This document shows, piece by piece, positions 17,097 through 24,791 of a stretch of DNA of 64,000 nt. Each line of letters starts with the position of its first letter. Within the stretch, counting starts at the first letter, position 1. This DNA is from Bacteroidia bacterium (lineage in GTDB: Bacteria; Bacteroidota; Bacteroidia; Chitinophagales; Chitinophagaceae): positions 1 to 64,000 of the forward strand of contig JAUIBA010000007.1 in NCBI GenBank assembly GCA_030427635.1, written 5' to 3'. The translations under genes and the position numbers were made by a program. Under the pieces are notes generated by a model. That model searched no databases. It was not told the DNA's origin and saw only the letters and a program-made list of their open reading frames with translations.

Positions 17097-17381
17097 GCCT
17101 GTATTCGCATGTTTTTTATCGGGCAGATATTATACGAATAATGCAATTTATGGTTGGATAGGTATAACATTGCTTAGTCAGATGCACCATTAGTACGTTT
17201 TCTGTATAAGTGTGCTGCTCACTGCCCTGAACGTACAAGAGTGTGACACAATGGAGGGGGATTAAAGATGGCAGTGCGTGTCCGGTTAATTTCTGTCATT
17301 CTGCTGACAGGTTATTAATCAACTGAAAACTTTATGTTTATTTGCACTACTTTCATTTATATACGCTTTAATGACTACGTT

Positions 17382-20300
17382 ATGCCCACCAATTTTACCA
17401 CTAAGCAGCTCTTCCTGTCTTTTGTAGTAATGCTTCTGAGTGTCAGCTTCCATACTACCGCTCAGGTAACCTATTATGTTGACTCTGCTCATGGCAATGA
17501 TGCATTTGCCGGTACCAGCTGGGGAACAGCATTCAGGAATGTAACACGGGCCGTTACCGCTGCGGCTGCCAGTACTGCTCCAGAGGTTTCCATATGGATA
17601 GCACAGGGTACTTACACTCCCATAGAGGGTATAGCCACACTTCCTGCCGACCTGCGGGATACTGCTTTCAGCTTCTACAGGGGCGATGGCATCGGGCGTT
17701 CACTGAAGGTTTATGGTGGGTTTGCCGGGGTGGAGGTAAACGTAAATGACCGTGATGCTTTTCATTCTACCTATCTGGAAGGCAATATAGCTACCGGATT
17801 ATTCAGCTACCATGTAGTTGTTATCGCAGGCCTGGCAGCTACTTCTGACAGTGTCATTATAGATGGCATTACTATCCGGCACGGCAATGCTGTAGGCTCA
17901 TCTGTAGCTAAAACATATAATGGGGTGGCCACTGATTCCCGTGCTGGTAGTGGTATTTATCTGTCTTCTGCGGGGTCTTCAAAACTTGCTCTGCGCAACT
18001 GTAAATTTGTTACAAACTACAATGCACGCATGGGGGGAGGCGTCTACATGGCAAATTCCAATCCACTGGTGGCAGATTGCAGTTTCATATCCAACTCTGC
18101 CCTTGGTGCCGGCGCCGGTATGTACGTTTCATCATCCACGCCACGAATCATTCATTGCAGTTTTGTGCTAAATGACACAAAGCTTTACAGCATGCAGGGT
18201 TTTGGAGGCGCCATATACAATCTATCATCTTCCCCGAACATTATAGGGTGCACGTTTACCTCAAATCAGGTATATGGTCAGGGAGATGTTTACGGTGGTG
18301 TTATTTATAATTCTGCAGGCTCTGATCCGCTTATCGACAGTTGCATTTTTATTTCCAATCAGGCACGGGGACATTCTACAACAGCCAGGGCATATGGGGG
18401 GGTGATACACAATCGTCTCTGCTCTCCCACTATCACAAACTGTGTTTTTGAAAACAATGTGGCATATGGCATGGGGGCATCTCTGGCGGGTCCTGGTCCG
18501 GCATATGGAGGAGTAATTTACAACCGGGGTGGCGCAGCCATTATCAGCAACTGTAAGTTTACTGCCAATTCTGTTGTGAGCAGGGGCTATATGTCTACCT
18601 CGGCAGGAAATGGTTATGCATATGGTGGTGCCATATGTAATATGGGGGCGGCACCGGTGATTACCAACTGTACTTTTACGTCAGATACAGCCATTGGGCA
18701 TATGGGTGTTCCGTCAATCGGTGGCTTTAATGGCTATGGCTACGGTGGTGCCATATATGATTCAGCATCTACCCCTGTTATCAGTAACTGTACATTCGAT
18801 GCCAATCGTGCATTGGGTGGCTATGGTTATGATGCAGGTTATGGTTTTGGCTATGGAGGCGCCATATGCAATGCATCTCTTACTGTGCCTGTAAGTATAT
18901 CTTCCTGCCGTTTTCAGAATAACAGGAGTAATAATGACGGAGGCGCTATTTACCAGACACTGAAGAAGCTGACGGTTACCAATAGCCTGTTCAGCAATAA
19001 TATGGCAAAGACAGGTGGGGCTATTGCGCTCCGTTATATTTATCTGATGCACTTTACGGCCTATGATAATGTATTTACAGGAAACCAGTCTACCGCAAGT
19101 GGTGGCGGCGCTATCAATATTGATAATGGTGGTGGTGAGGATACAATGATCAACAATCTGTTTGTAAACAATACAGATGCCGGTGGTCTGGGTGGCGGCG
19201 CTATTCTTATAACCCGCGGTGTTCACTACATTTTCAATAATACTTTTTATGCCAACAATGCTCTGGCCGGTGGTACCGGAGGCGCCATACATGTAGTGTC
19301 GGTACCGGTATCCGGCACATTTGCCAACAATCTGTTTAACAGCAGCGTGGGTACAGGAGCCCATGCCGATACTGCACTGGCGGTCATTGGCAGCTATACA
19401 TTTACTAACAATCTTTTCAGTACTACCGATCCGCTGTTCCGGGACCCATCTGCTGTTACCGGGCCGGATGGAATATGGCGTACTGCCGATGACGGACTTC
19501 AGTTAACAGCCTGTAGCCCGGCCCGCAATGCTGGGCTAAATGCCTATGTAGTGCCGGGGGAGCTATCTGATATAACGGGTACCGCCCGTATCAAGGGGCT
19601 ATTCGTAGATATAGGTGCCTATGAAAGCAATGCTATAGGTGCTATTACCGGTGCCCATGATTTATGTGTGGGAGGCAGCGCAACACTAACTGATACAACT
19701 GCCGGTGGTGTATGGATCAGCACTAATCCTGCCATTGCTACCGTGAGCAGTGCAGGGCTGGTAACCGGGATAAGTCCCGGGCTGGATACCATCTTTTATA
19801 CCGTGACCAGCCCTTGTGGCGTGGACACTGCAATGGTTACATTTTCTGTATATCCCGCATCCTATGCAGGTACGCTCACCGGCAGCAGCAGTGTATGTGT
19901 GGGCGACACAACTATACTGACCGGGAACCTGACCGGGGGTACATGGTCGGCCAGTAATACTAATGCAACGGTTATGGACGGCATAGTGACAGGCGTAGCT
20001 GCGGGCACAGTAATAATCAGCTACAGCAATAGCTGTGCCGGTGCATTTGCTACTATTGTTGTTACTGTAAACGATGTGCCTCCTGTGGCCACAGTTACCG
20101 GAGCTTCGGTAATATGTATCGGTACCTCTGTGACGCTGACGGCAAGTGTAGCAGGGGGAACGTGGTCAGTGGTCAATCCTGTTGCAATAGTGTCAGGTGG
20201 TGGCGTTGTTACCGGACTTACCATAGGCATAGACACAGTGATATATACCCTGACTAATACATGTGGCACGAGTACAGCTACAAAAGAGGTGTCCGTGTCT

Positions 20301-21251
20301 ATTGTAGCGCCTTCGGCAGGTGTTATTTCTGGTGCGGCATCGGTATGTGTAGGTAGCAGTACTGTATTTTCTGACCCTGTTCCGGGAGGTGTGTGGAGCA
20401 CAGCCGGCTCGTATGCAACAGTGAGTAGTACAGGTATAGTAACCGGCATAGCTGCAGGGGTAGATACTGTCATCTATACAGTAAGCAGCAGCTGTGGCAG
20501 TGCAAGTGCATACCGTACCATTACTGTAAATCCGCTGCCTTCGGCAGGCACTCTTTCAGGGCCTTCTGCAGTATGTGTAGGTGCAACTATTACGTTGTCG
20601 CCTTCTGTTCCGGCTGGACTGTGGACTGTTACCAATGCCACTGCAACAGTACTGGCAGGTGTAGTGACGGGTGTGAGTGTGGGCATTGATACCATAGCGT
20701 ATACAGTAATCAATATGTGTGGGACTGCTACTGCAACATACGTTGTTACGATAGATGTGATGCCTGATGCGGGAACACTGTCGGGGCCGGATAGCGTTTG
20801 TATAGGAGATACCATCCTGCTTGCCAGCACAGTAGCCGGAGGTACATGGGGTAGTAGTAATATGCACAGCTCAGTAGTGGCCGGGATGGTTTCCGGCTTG
20901 TCGGAAGGCATGGATACCATTTACTATGCTGTTGCCGGTGTCTGTAGCACGGCTACGGTTTCCAGAATCATACGCATAGTAGATTGTGCTGCAGCTGTGC
21001 CACAGACGGGCCCGGCTGCATTTATACCTATACGGGTGTATCCTAATCCTGCCCATGACCAGCTTGTTATAGAAAACGCGGCAGGCCTTACCCTGTATGT
21101 TACAGACATATGTGGAAGGCGTATGAGCGCTCACACAGCGAAGGCGGATAATGAAGTGTTTCAGATAGCGGATCTGCTTCCCGGTGTTTACTTATTGGTC
21201 TTTGCAGACCATGAAGGTGCCAGACATACAGTGCGTTTCATAAAGCAGTAA
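17382..21251 (+). CDS. giant T9SS surface protein: parallel beta-helix plus six Ig-like repeats
   Basis: A 1289-residue surface protein. After the signal peptide (ending TTAQ) comes a domain opening YYVDSAHGNDAFAGTSWGTAFRNV, typical of right-handed beta-helix proteins. Residues about 170-690 form many beta-helix turns with the recurrent pattern YGGAIxN-x-PxIxNCTFxxN. A short closing module (CSPARNAGLN to DIGAYES) matches the choice-of-anchor type end of such helices. Six Ig-like repeats of about 75 residues follow (SVCVG...GGTWS...VTG...DTIxYTV...CG). The C-terminus is a sorting domain (IRVYPNPAHDQLVIE to RHTVRFIKQ). The ATG at 17382 is preferred over 17334 because it starts at the signal peptide. 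Likely an adhesin or polysaccharide-binding protein; no catalytic residues are obvious. Confidence 0.85.
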   Translation: MPTNFTTKQLFLSFVVMLLSVSFHTTAQVTYYVDSAHGNDAFAGTSWGTAFRNVTRAVTAAAASTAPEVSIWIAQGTYTPIEGIATLPADLRDTAFSFYRGDGIGRSLKVYGGFAGVEVNVNDRDAFHSTYLEGNIATGLFSYHVVVIAGLAATSDSVIIDGITIRHGNAVGSSVAKTYNGVATDSRAGSGIYLSSAGSSKLALRNCKFVTNYNARMGGGVYMANSNPLVADCSFISNSALGAGAGMYVSSSTPRIIHCSFVLNDTKLYSMQGFGGAIYNLSSSPNIIGCTFTSNQVYGQGDVYGGVIYNSAGSDPLIDSCIFISNQARGHSTTARAYGGVIHNRLCSPTITNCVFENNVAYGMGASLAGPGPAYGGVIYNRGGAAIISNCKFTANSVVSRGYMSTSAGNGYAYGGAICNMGAAPVITNCTFTSDTAIGHMGVPSIGGFNGYGYGGAIYDSASTPVISNCTFDANRALGGYGYDAGYGFGYGGAICNASLTVPVSISSCRFQNNRSNNDGGAIYQTLKKLTVTNSLFSNNMAKTGGAIALRYIYLMHFTAYDNVFTGNQSTASGGGAINIDNGGGEDTMINNLFVNNTDAGGLGGGAILITRGVHYIFNNTFYANNALAGGTGGAIHVVSVPVSGTFANNLFNSSVGTGAHADTALAVIGSYTFTNNLFSTTDPLFRDPSAVTGPDGIWRTADDGLQLTACSPARNAGLNAYVVPGELSDITGTARIKGLFVDIGAYESNAIGAITGAHDLCVGGSATLTDTTAGGVWISTNPAIATVSSAGLVTGISPGLDTIFYTVTSPCGVDTAMVTFSVYPASYAGTLTGSSSVCVGDTTILTGNLTGGTWSASNTNATVMDGIVTGVAAGTVIISYSNSCAGAFATIVVTVNDVPPVATVTGASVICIGTSVTLTASVAGGTWSVVNPVAIVSGGGVVTGLTIGIDTVIYTLTNTCGTSTATKEVSVSIVAPSAGVISGAASVCVGSSTVFSDPVPGGVWSTAGSYATVSSTGIVTGIAAGVDTVIYTVSSSCGSASAYRTITVNPLPSAGTLSGPSAVCVGATITLSPSVPAGLWTVTNATATVLAGVVTGVSVGIDTIAYTVINMCGTATATYVVTIDVMPDAGTLSGPDSVCIGDTILLASTVAGGTWGSSNMHSSVVAGMVSGLSEGMDTIYYAVAGVCSTATVSRIIRIVDCAAAVPQTGPAAFIPIRVYPNPAHDQLVIENAAGLTLYVTDICGRRMSAHTAKADNEVFQIADLLPGVYLLVFADHEGARHTVRFIKQ

Positions 21252-21342: not shown

Positions 21343-21373
21343 TTTGTTGATAAAAACAATTGTACTACTTTTG
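21343..21373 (+). promoter_or_regulatory. promoter of the cobalamin-riboswitch operon
   Basis: TTTG at 21343-21346 and TACTTTTG at 21366-21373, separated by 19 bp: an exact match to the Bacteroidetes TTTG-N19-TAnnTTTG consensus. Transcription would begin near 21378-21380, immediately before the riboswitch. Confidence 0.75.
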
Positions 21374-21377
21374 CGCC

Positions 21378-21590
21378 GCACAGGTTTCTACCCGTCATGG
21401 GTGGAATTAAAAGGGAACCAGGTGAGAATCCCGGACATTTCCCGATGCTGTATGCTCCGCAAAAGCCTTTTTGCAACCTGCGAATATTGCCACTGCCATA
21501 AAACCGGATGATACCGGCGGCGGGAAGGCCGCAAAAAGGGGAGTAAGTCAGAAGACCTGCCTGAGCGCCTCACAGTTGTGAGGTTACTTA
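21378..21590 (+). ncRNA. adenosylcobalamin (B12) riboswitch
   Basis: The conserved blocks of the cobalamin riboswitch occur in the right order and spacing: CAGGTTTC near 21381, AAAAGGGAA at 21409-21417, CAGGTGAGAATCC just after it, CCCGATGCTGTA, CCACTG at 21490-21495, GGGAAGGC at 21522-21529 and AAGTCAGAAGACCTGCC at 21545-21561. A CCTCACAGTTGTGAGG hairpin follows and could form the kissing-loop/expression-platform element. It lies in the long leader of the DUF4465 gene at 21710, so B12 should repress that operon. Short open frames overlapping this region are therefore not genes. Confidence 0.9.
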
Positions 21591-21709
21591 TCGCTGCTTT
21601 CGGGACCAAAAGCACAGGTGAGACAAAGGCAGTACTTCTGTTTTTATCTACATTCTGAATTTTCCCCTTTGGCTGCATAAAAGAACGTTTTTTTAAAACC
21701 AGTTTCTAT

Positions 21710-22699
21710 ATGCGCACATTTACGCTCCTGCTTTCGGCCCTTGTACTGGGCTGCACCGCCCTCAGGGCTCAGACCGTGGCCACTTTTGAGGCCCTTACAC
21801 TGGCACATGCCGACACTTTCTACACTAACTACACGGCCTCCGGTACCGATGTGGGTTTTGACAATGGTATGGCCCATTTCCCCTGTGTTTATGATACATC
21901 GTGGGGGGGCTTATGGTCGGAAGGGGTTGCCTACTCCAATATGACCGATAGTGTAACCAGCGGCTACATGAATCAGTATTCGGCAAAGACTGCCATAGGC
22001 TTTGGTGGCTCAGAAAAGTATGTGGTGGCATATGGCAGCCAGACAATGGTAAAGCTTACCGGCGCAGCTATGGGGCATCCGGTAAAGGGTTTCCGCATCA
22101 CTAATAATACCTATGCTTATAACAGCATGAGAGACGGTGACATGTTTGCCCGTAAGTTTCATAACGGCGACTGGTACAAGATAATAGCCAGAGGTTACTA
22201 CAACGGTGTGCTGAAAGATGACAGCGTGGGTTTTTACCTGGCTAACTTTCTCCACCCAGACTCTAACGATAACTATATAGTGCGTACATGGGAGTGGTTT
22301 AACCTGGAGCCACTGGGCAAGGTAGACAGTCTGGTGTTCTCACTGTCCAGCAGTGATAATGGCTCGTTTGGTATGAATACACCAGCCTACTTCTGTATGG
22401 ACGACTTTACTACTTACGAGACGTTTGATACCACAACACCTACTACTGCTGTGAGCAATGTAGCGGTAATGCAGGTGAAGTTATATCCGGTACCTGCTAC
22501 ATCGGTACTGCATGTAGTACTGCCAGATGCCGGCGCTGCCGATATGGTGGTGACAGACATGGCCGGCCGTGTGGTGACAACCGTGCGCAGTGCTACGCAG
22601 CATACAGAGATAAATACCGCAGGTATGGCACCGGGTATGTATCAGCTGATGATAACGGGCGATGGCCGTAAAGCAACGACAAGATTTATAAAGCAATAA
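21710..22699 (+). CDS. DUF4465 domain protein with T9SS sorting domain, B12-regulated
   Basis: A 329-residue secreted protein: signal peptide (ending LRAQ), a DUF4465 domain (residues about 25-240; GVAYSNMTDSVTSGYMNQYSAKTAIG, KGFRITNNTYAYNSMRDGD, FMDDFTTYE-like end) and a C-terminal sorting domain (VKLYPVPATSVLHV to TTRFIKQ). DUF4465 proteins commonly sit in Bacteroidetes cobalamin-uptake loci. It is the first gene after a B12 riboswitch, so a role in surface capture of B12 or related corrinoids is likely; direct binding is inferred. T9SS export replaces the lipoprotein anchoring usual in gut Bacteroides. Confidence 0.85.
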   Translation: MRTFTLLLSALVLGCTALRAQTVATFEALTLAHADTFYTNYTASGTDVGFDNGMAHFPCVYDTSWGGLWSEGVAYSNMTDSVTSGYMNQYSAKTAIGFGGSEKYVVAYGSQTMVKLTGAAMGHPVKGFRITNNTYAYNSMRDGDMFARKFHNGDWYKIIARGYYNGVLKDDSVGFYLANFLHPDSNDNYIVRTWEWFNLEPLGKVDSLVFSLSSSDNGSFGMNTPAYFCMDDFTTYETFDTTTPTTAVSNVAVMQVKLYPVPATSVLHVVLPDAGAADMVVTDMAGRVVTTVRSATQHTEINTAGMAPGMYQLMITGDGRKATTRFIKQ

Positions 22700-22706
22700 T
22701 TACTGA

Positions 22707-22735
22707 TGGCCGGAGGTTGTAACTTTACCTCCGGC
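22707..22735 (+). terminator. strong hairpin inside the B12 operon
   Basis: GGCCGGAGGT and ACCTCCGGCC form a perfect 10-bp stem 7 bp after the DUF4465 stop, followed by ACTTTATTTT. It may partly terminate transcription so that the first gene is made in excess of the two behind it. Confidence 0.6.
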
Positions 22736-22758
22736 CACTTTATTTTAAAACTAAGCAC

Positions 22759-23751
22759 ATGAAGAAATTACTGCTACTGATGGCACTTGCCGTGGGCAAT
22801 ACTGCCTGGGGCCAGTTTGCACCTCAGGCGGGGCTGCCGGGTAGTACTGCCATACCTGCAGCCAGCAGCTCATTTGTGGCATGGGCCAATGCCTGTACCG
22901 TATACCGTGGTTATATAGACATAGCCAACCCCGGTGCCGGAGTTACCACACAGGGCGATGAGTCGGTAGTGGTAGGTGTGCCCGATGGCTCTCTGCTGTC
23001 GCTGGGGGATAGCGGCGTGATTGTGCTTACCTTTCCCGGTACTATCTATAACGGGCCGGGGCCTGACTTTGCTGTGTTTGAAAACGGCTTTAAAAATCCC
23101 TCCAATGATGCTATGGCCTTTCTGGAGCTGGCATTTGCCGAGGTAAGCTCAGACGGGGTAAACTACTTCCGCTTCCCTGCTACCTGCAATGTACCCACTA
23201 CTACGCAGATACCAGGCTCCGGTGTATATACCGATGCCTCACTTATCAATAATCTGGCGGGTAAATACATAGCCGGATATGGTACACCGTTTGACCTGGA
23301 AGAGCTGAAGGATGTGGCGGGGCTGGATGTGAATAACATAACCCATGTGCGTCTGGTAGATGTGATAGGCTCGGTATCGGGTCATGCATCAAAGGACCAT
23401 GAGGGGCGTGTAATCAACGACCCGTATCCTACCAACTTCCCTACGGGCGGCTTTGACCTGGATGCCGTAGGCGCTATCAATATTCATACTACGGGAGTGC
23501 CGGATGTGGGCATGAGTGCTGTGCGCATCTTCCCTAATCCTGCCAGTGACAGAATCTCCTTTTCCCTGCCTGCACATACCATACAACAGCATGTAAGTAT
23601 TATAGCTGCCACGGGTGTGGTGGTGAGCCGCTTTGATGCAGCCGGTGATACCGGTGCGGCAGACATTGCTCATCTTCCTGCAGGCGTATACAGCCTGTGT
23701 ATAACTGATGATAACGGCAGCCGATGCATGGGCAGGTTCGTAAAATACTGA
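22759..23751 (+). CDS. T9SS-sorted surface protein of B12-uptake loci type
   Basis: A 330-residue secreted protein: signal peptide (ending TAWGQ), a beta-sandwich core with GPGPDFAVFENGF, FLELAFAEVSSDGVNYFRFP and the GGFDLDAVGAI strand, and a C-terminal sorting domain (VRIFPNPASDRISF to GRFVKY). Proteins with this DFAVFENGF core are found as unnamed 'cell surface proteins' next to BtuB/BtuG genes. It is second in the riboswitch-controlled operon and overlaps the next gene by 28 bp, so translation of the two is coupled. A role in corrinoid capture is inferred from context only. Confidence 0.82.
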   Translation: MKKLLLLMALAVGNTAWGQFAPQAGLPGSTAIPAASSSFVAWANACTVYRGYIDIANPGAGVTTQGDESVVVGVPDGSLLSLGDSGVIVLTFPGTIYNGPGPDFAVFENGFKNPSNDAMAFLELAFAEVSSDGVNYFRFPATCNVPTTTQIPGSGVYTDASLINNLAGKYIAGYGTPFDLEELKDVAGLDVNNITHVRLVDVIGSVSGHASKDHEGRVINDPYPTNFPTGGFDLDAVGAINIHTTGVPDVGMSAVRIFPNPASDRISFSLPAHTIQQHVSIIAATGVVVSRFDAAGDTGAADIAHLPAGVYSLCITDDNGSRCMGRFVKY

Positions 23752-24791
23752 TAGCAGCGCTGGTGTGCCTGCTGCAGGCATGCGTAAAGGACCGGCCTGG
23801 GCCGGTGGTGGCAACTACTGCACGCGGCAATGTGTATGTAGTATGTGAGGGTAGCCTTAGTAACGGTAATGCCACGCTTTATAACTACAACCCGGCTACA
23901 GACAGCGCCTATGGCGATGTGTATGCTGCGGTAAATCATCAGCCGCTGGGCGATGTGTTTCAGAGCATGACCCGCATGGGCGACAGCCTGTATCTCTGCA
24001 TCAATAACTCTGATAAGATAATAGTACTGAATGCTGCCGATAAGACACTGGCAGGCACTATAAGCATACCCAAGCCCCGCTATATGCAGCAGGTAGCTGC
24101 AGACAGGGCTTATGTATCTACCCTCTTCAGCCACGATGTGTATGTGATAAACCCGCGCACGCTGCAGGTGATACAGACCATAACTATGCCGTATGAGAAT
24201 GTGGAGCGCATGTGTGCCACACAGGGCAGCATTATTCTATGCCCGTGGGATACCCTGTGCAGCAAGGTGTATAAGCTGGATGCGCTTACGGGCGCACAGC
24301 AGCAGGCTATAAACATAGCGGGCAATGCACCCCACTCTGTACTGATGGACAGGGAGCAGATGCTGTGGGTGATGAGTGGGAATGTAACCCGGGGGCGCAC
24401 GGCGGCCCTTACGCGTATAGACCCATCTACCGGCAATGTGCTGCGCAGCTATACCTTTCCCGCCACTGCCGACCCTATAAAGCCGGTATTCAATGCCAGC
24501 CGCGATACACTCTACTACATACAGGTAAAGTATGATGGCAGCAATGCCGATAATGGCATATACCGCATGGGCATACATGAGGCATCACTGCCTGCTGTAC
24601 CATTAATAGCTGCTGCAAAATATCAGTACTTCTGGGCGCTGGGTACAGAACCTGCTACGGGCAACATATACGTAGGCGACCCGAAAGGCTTTGTGCAGAA
24701 GGGTAGTGTATCTGTGTACCGCCCCGATGGCAGCCAGGTGACCACCTTTGCGACAGGGCTGGGGCCGGGGGAGTTTTATTTTGAGGAGTGA
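23724..24791 (+). CDS. btuG: BtuG-like cobamide-binding beta-propeller lipoprotein (DUF5074/YncE-like)
   Basis: A 355-residue lipoprotein with lipobox CLLQAC (lipidated Cys near residue 20). The rest is a beta-propeller: repeated units such as GNVYVVCEGSLSNGNATLYNYNPATDSAYGDVY, DSLYLCINNSDKIIVLNAADKTLAGTI and TGNIYVGDPKGFVQKGSVSVYRPDG, with the final blade ending GLGPGEFYFEE. This matches BtuG, the surface lipoprotein that binds cobamides with very high affinity and passes them to BtuB in Bacteroides. The start overlaps the previous gene. No BtuB gene adjoins it, which is unusual; the partner transporter must lie elsewhere. Confidence 0.82.
   Translation: MHGQVRKILIAALVCLLQACVKDRPGPVVATTARGNVYVVCEGSLSNGNATLYNYNPATDSAYGDVYAAVNHQPLGDVFQSMTRMGDSLYLCINNSDKIIVLNAADKTLAGTISIPKPRYMQQVAADRAYVSTLFSHDVYVINPRTLQVIQTITMPYENVERMCATQGSIILCPWDTLCSKVYKLDALTGAQQQAINIAGNAPHSVLMDREQMLWVMSGNVTRGRTAALTRIDPSTGNVLRSYTFPATADPIKPVFNASRDTLYYIQVKYDGSNADNGIYRMGIHEASLPAVPLIAAAKYQYFWALGTEPATGNIYVGDPKGFVQKGSVSVYRPDGSQVTTFATGLGPGEFYFEE

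Follow-up and report, generated by a model that had tools for sequence, protein, structure and literature searches.

The 64,000-nt stretch of DNA analysed here (hereafter the window, corresponding to positions 1-64000 of the 184-kb contig C6) contains what is very probably a B12-repressed operon for surface cobamide capture, with the gene order btuJ-btuH-btuG, from which btuB has been moved out and is probably B12-independent. The host assembly (G000) is a 4.25 Mb draft of 49 contigs, 99.5% complete, and C6 carries both the operon and the relocated btuB. Judging from its named relatives, the bacterium may be a Chitinophagaceae member of the Flavipsychrobacter/Taibaiella type.

All the elements of the operon are on the + strand, with the open reading frames at 21710-22699, 22759-23751 and 23724-24791, in agreement with the first-pass annotation, which had described promoter, riboswitch and three genes as one unit. 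The full Bacteroidetes promoter of that description was found as an exact TTTG-N19-TACTTTTG at 21343-21373 (+ strand). This was the sole exact match within the window, compared with 0.56 expected by chance, and the promoter assignment leans chiefly on its position before the operon. The cobalamin riboswitch aptamer (21365-21578, + strand) matched the RF00174 covariance model with 96.2 bits (gathering cut-off 31.5, E 1e-22) from model position 1 to 189, that is over the full aptamer, and the riboswitch is complete, as had been claimed. A simple scan found no intrinsic terminator between the riboswitch and btuJ, and the expression of the operon is predicted to be repressed by B12. In the whole genome RF00174 has only one other match (L002, G000:C44:15543-15776), upstream of the gene for the class I ribonucleotide reductase beta subunit. 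Just upstream of the operon (17334-21251) there is a gene for a T9SS-tailed protein of 1305 aa, a right-handed beta-helix with Big_2-like repeats, probably unrelated. Of 20 loci of relatives, 12 have a MarR-type regulator gene (cluster c4) ahead of the riboswitch operon; in this window it is absent.

The first gene (21710-22699, + strand, 329 aa) encodes what by its domains is a DUF4465/BtuJ protein, with a signal peptide, a DUF4465 jelly roll of the B12-binding type (PF14717, 180.7 bits, cut-off 25) and a type A tail for the type IX secretion system (T9SS), detected by both Por_Secre_tail in Pfam and TIGR04183 (48.5 bits, cut-off 23); a T9SS-sorted DUF4465 protein was therefore correctly proposed. 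The protein aligns with solved DUF4465 proteins and, at 22373-22390 (+ strand), has the motif MNTPAY, which, when compared with PMC12751083, corresponds to MNTPSY, the loop motif conserved in BtuJ, and keeps the conserved Tyr. Since binding of B12 was shown for the DUF4465 family (PMC12751083, PMC13398666), and precisely for eight diverse members of it (PMC13398666), we infer that the gene 1 protein may bind B12 as well. Compared with this family (IPR027828), gene 1 has the same PF14717 domain, the MNTPxY loop motif and the surface targeting, without any essential difference. In fact, T9SS-tailed members had already been counted, IPR026444 being carried by 229 of 824 DUF4465 members (PMC12751083).

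The second gene (22759-23751, + strand, 330 aa) encodes a signal peptide, a putative BtuH-type domain and a T9SS type A tail, the last being the sole domain recognised by Pfam (Por_Secre_tail). The tail reached 32.9 bits with TIGR04183 (cut-off 23) and the motif DFAVFENGF is at 23065-23091 (+ strand), so that the earlier description of a T9SS-sorted DFAVFENGF protein holds. The structure of the protein was modelled by AlphaFold (AF2) using an alignment of relatives as input (pLDDT 93.7, pTM 0.91). Foldseek gave no match under E 0.001 for this model, and the VIA comparison ranked BtuH2 (7biz) at the top (Z 12.5, 157 aligned, 3.3 A) and the C-terminal BtuH-type domain of BtuG1 (8blw_B) second (Z 12.1), followed by PAPP-A and CBM32/discoidin folds with Z of 9.5 and below. 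A weak similarity to AlyQ was remarked in the BtuH paper (PMC8941943).

At the sequence level, profiles of the gene 2 family run against the PDB retrieved either T9SS tails or nothing, and BtuH was not recovered in this way. As a query we then considered a BtuH signature which, when checked, matched 7biz at 5e-44. Genomes with this signature contain bridging proteins, which matched the signature at 5e-29 and 1e-32 and were also retrieved by the gene 2 profile (1.6e-8 and 3e-7, in a search of some ten ORFs); one of them matched solved BtuG1 at 1e-55 and BtuH2 at 1e-47. The hhalign comparison between the gene 2 profile and BtuH gave E 1e-4 to 2e-3 with a probability of 13-57%. In the profile alignment, DFAVFENGF falls on the BtuH stretch DFxVxGNAF. 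The residues of BtuH2 that contact B12 are Q333, N399, F401, H476, Y510, W511, W577 and L578, of which N399 and F401 contact the phosphate and the lower ligand (PMC8941943). N109 and F111 of the motif correspond to N399 and F401, hence two of the eight contacts were mapped (BtuH2 numbering was taken from the construct of PMC8941943, residues 103-593, assuming two vector residues). In an 18-member comparison of the gene 2 family, N109 never varies and F111 hardly does.

On the basis of fold, bridging sequences and one motif, gene 2 is most likely a T9SS-sorted BtuH rather than something new in kind, and its protein may bind B12. It shares with BtuH (BtuH2 of B. theta, 7biz, and the C-terminal domain of BtuG1, 8blw) the predicted fold, the motif aligned with N399/F401 and the operon position, whereas the T9SS tail, the lack of PKD and propeller domains and the lack of a direct sequence match set it apart. 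A limited literature search found no report of a T9SS-sorted BtuH. We also considered BtuL as a candidate identity, given the place before btuG, and rejected it: the Bacteroides protein in that place has no match to the gene 2 profile and contains a Receptor L domain.

The gene 2 family is represented by at least 546 confirmed loci in a scan of named genomes (the class-wide profile search was dominated by T9SS tail matches). For the best 80 of these loci, a simple proxy detected a riboswitch motif at 67; the same proxy found 21/21 control loci, plus two stray hits there. Within five genes of the gene 2 homologs we found BtuG at 60, BtuB at 47 and DUF4465 at 48 of 79 loci. Three stand-alone homologs (L151, L152 and L188) are directly behind a cobalamin riboswitch motif, and in three cases the BtuH-like and DUF4465 (BtuJ) domains are fused in one protein (L243:5760-7685, which also bears a T9SS tail, L242:6818-8416 and L134:2835-4541). 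Taken together, the riboswitch association, the neighbours and the fusions connect the family with the uptake of cobamides. More distantly related versions of the gene 2 core (L234-L241) occur in other Bacteroidota, not beside B12 genes.

These data also bear on another possible identity of gene 2, that is a discoidin/CBM32-type domain with an adhesin-like or carbohydrate-binding role at the surface, which would not bind B12 and would simply be carried in a B12 operon. We consider it unlikely: such folds do match the model at Z 8 to 9.5 and the domain has distant relatives away from B12 genes, but two B12-binding BtuH domains rank clearly above, the riboswitch motif accompanies most of the best loci, stand-alone members included, and some proteins have the domain fused to the B12-binding DUF4465 domain.

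The third gene (23724-24791, + strand, 355 aa) overlaps the BtuH-like gene by 28 bp, an overlap that recurs in most related operons, and encodes a predicted surface lipoprotein with a beta-propeller, DUF5074 and the lipobox LLQAC, read in the sequence. It matched the solved BtuG structures with a phmmer E of about 1e-33 over 337 aa (residues 16-352), and the BtuG-like lipoprotein overlapping gene 2 was thus confirmed. Compared with BtuG, a DUF5074 surface lipoprotein that forms a stable complex with BtuB (PMC10404256), gene 3 shares the full-length homology and the lipobox, but has no adjoining btuB in this genome. As for the other two products, they are predicted to be T9SS type A cargo, with tails above the TIGR04183 cut-off and the T9SS components SprA and PorQ encoded in the genome, in line with the proposed T9SS anchoring of two of the partners.

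No TonB-dependent transporter was found in the window, as had been noticed, and the whole contig has just two Plug domains, located at 165 and 178 kb. The BtuB ortholog is encoded at C6:165316-167181, about 140 kb downstream from the operon and on the same strand (51% identity). Hence the transporter is encoded elsewhere, as suggested, and a btuB directly beside the operon, which the first-pass annotation had named as contrary to its reading, was not seen. The best NCBIfam model for the relocated protein is TonB-B12 (TIGR01779), with 70 bits, far from the cut-off of 599.7; since the operon-linked BtuB relatives are likewise low (72-74 bits), the assignment to BtuB was made by orthology and synteny.

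The relocated btuB starts 71 bp after the gene for phosphosulfolactate synthase (comA), and between the two there is a terminator-like hairpin with a T-run (L038:3695-3765), so that btuB may depend on read-through or on an unrecognised promoter. No RF00174 match was found near it, even at E 10, and no Bacteroidetes promoter consensus was found close to it. A genome search for further B12-riboswitch loci with BtuB had been proposed; its outcome was negative, the second riboswitch being that of the ribonucleotide reductase. From these sequence features, the relocated btuB is probably expressed independently of B12, although it could be B12-controlled by another route. The PorQ gene of the T9SS (L038:5713-6846) is convergent with the relocated btuB.

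We searched 34 congeners, finding gene 2 in 32 and a BtuB ortholog in 34/34. In 31 of the 32 with both, btuB and gene 2 are no more than about 3 kb apart, and the operons that were read out have the order DUF4465-gene 2-BtuG-BtuB behind the riboswitch, with btuB after btuG in nearly all. The sole exception is a sister species (G018), in which btuB is gone from the operon and a comA-btuB junction is present. An assembly artefact could in principle explain the missing btuB, the genome being a 49-contig draft. We consider this extremely improbable, given that operon and btuB are on one 184-kb contig and that the sister species, assembled independently, has the comA-btuB junction too. This genome and G018 come out as sisters both in the tree of the capture proteins (0.90) and in that of BtuB (0.89), a pairing for which one btuB move in their common ancestor is the simplest reading; hence btuB most likely left the operon in that ancestor. 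In a genome of another genus (G035) btuB is on a contig without any riboswitch, and in Taibaiella chishuiensis, T. koreensis and T. lutea we found btuJ-H-G and no btuB beside it, whereas T. soli keeps btuB there. Since these lineages are also split, the separation of btuB probably happened more than once.

The explanation that we favour is as follows. When B12 is scarce, the riboswitch would leave the operon on; the T9SS would export BtuJ and the BtuH-like protein, and on the cell surface these would bind cobamides. BtuG, a surface lipoprotein, would then receive the cobamide and act as the lid of a BtuB supplied from the gene about 140 kb away. We infer the B12 binding, the order of hand-over, the repression by B12 and the pairing of this BtuG with this BtuB. 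As the BtuH2 of B. theta does not associate stably with either BtuG2 or BtuB2 (PMC8941943), the hand-over is put forward as a hypothesis. The B12-using enzymes MetH and IcmF are present in the genome. No FecCD (BtuC-type) permease was found in this genome, nor in 31 of 35 genomes of the genus.

The first-pass annotation had considered the three proteins as a satellite corrinoid-capture layer serving a distant transporter. The capture operon and the transporter encoded elsewhere stand; a separate satellite kind is not supported, because btuB is at the operon in nearly all the congeners, which makes this an ordinary operon after btuB left. A stronger form of the idea, a free-standing layer whose three proteins act without BtuB (for example on vesicles or as released protein), storing or denying B12, appears improbable. 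It would fit a btuB located away from the operon in three genomes (this one, G018 and G035), three Taibaiella species whose operons had no btuB found next to them, and the loading of vesicles with B12 by BtuJ in B. theta (PMC12751083); against it are the retention of btuB at the operon in 31 of 32 congeners, the BtuB ortholog kept by this genome, and the stable BtuG-BtuB complex (PMC10404256).

The operon with relocated btuB is best compared with the Bacteroides locus, whose gene order is BtuJ, BtuH, a protein in the BtuL position, BtuG and BtuB. Precisely, cobamide transport locus 2 (BtuJ2-BtuH2-BtuL-BtuG2-BtuB2; PMC12751083) has in common with it the riboswitch, the J-H-G order and the surface capture of B12. 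In contrast, the J and H proteins here carry T9SS tails where those of Bacteroides have lipid anchors, the operon lacks BtuL, the genome has yielded no FecCD permease, and btuB is about 140 kb off, without a riboswitch. The system is thus nothing new in kind: it is the B12-capture system already known from Bacteroidetes, here in a T9SS form and with btuB relocated, T9SS-tailed DUF4465 proteins having been counted before (PMC12751083) and gene 2 being most likely BtuH-like. What is new is a likely identity for a large BtuH-like family that had no annotation, and an apparent split regulation. A limited literature search found no report of a riboswitch-free btuB with riboswitch-controlled btuJHG elsewhere in the genome. 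With chances that we put only a little above even, the riboswitch controls the capture proteins only (T9SS-anchored BtuJ and BtuH-like protein, and BtuG), btuB has come to lack a riboswitch in at least two lineages (one made up of this genome and G018, the other being G035), and the gene 2 family represents a large T9SS branch of the B12-binding BtuH proteins that had so far escaped recognition.

This provides a likely function for a family without a name in Pfam and NCBIfam, whose loci in Bacteroidota number more than 500 and mostly follow a B12 riboswitch. It also extends the gut model of B12 capture to environmental bacteria anchoring their capture proteins via T9SS, and offers a natural case in which B12 capture and transport seem to be separately regulated, in a genus mostly without a BtuC-type permease.
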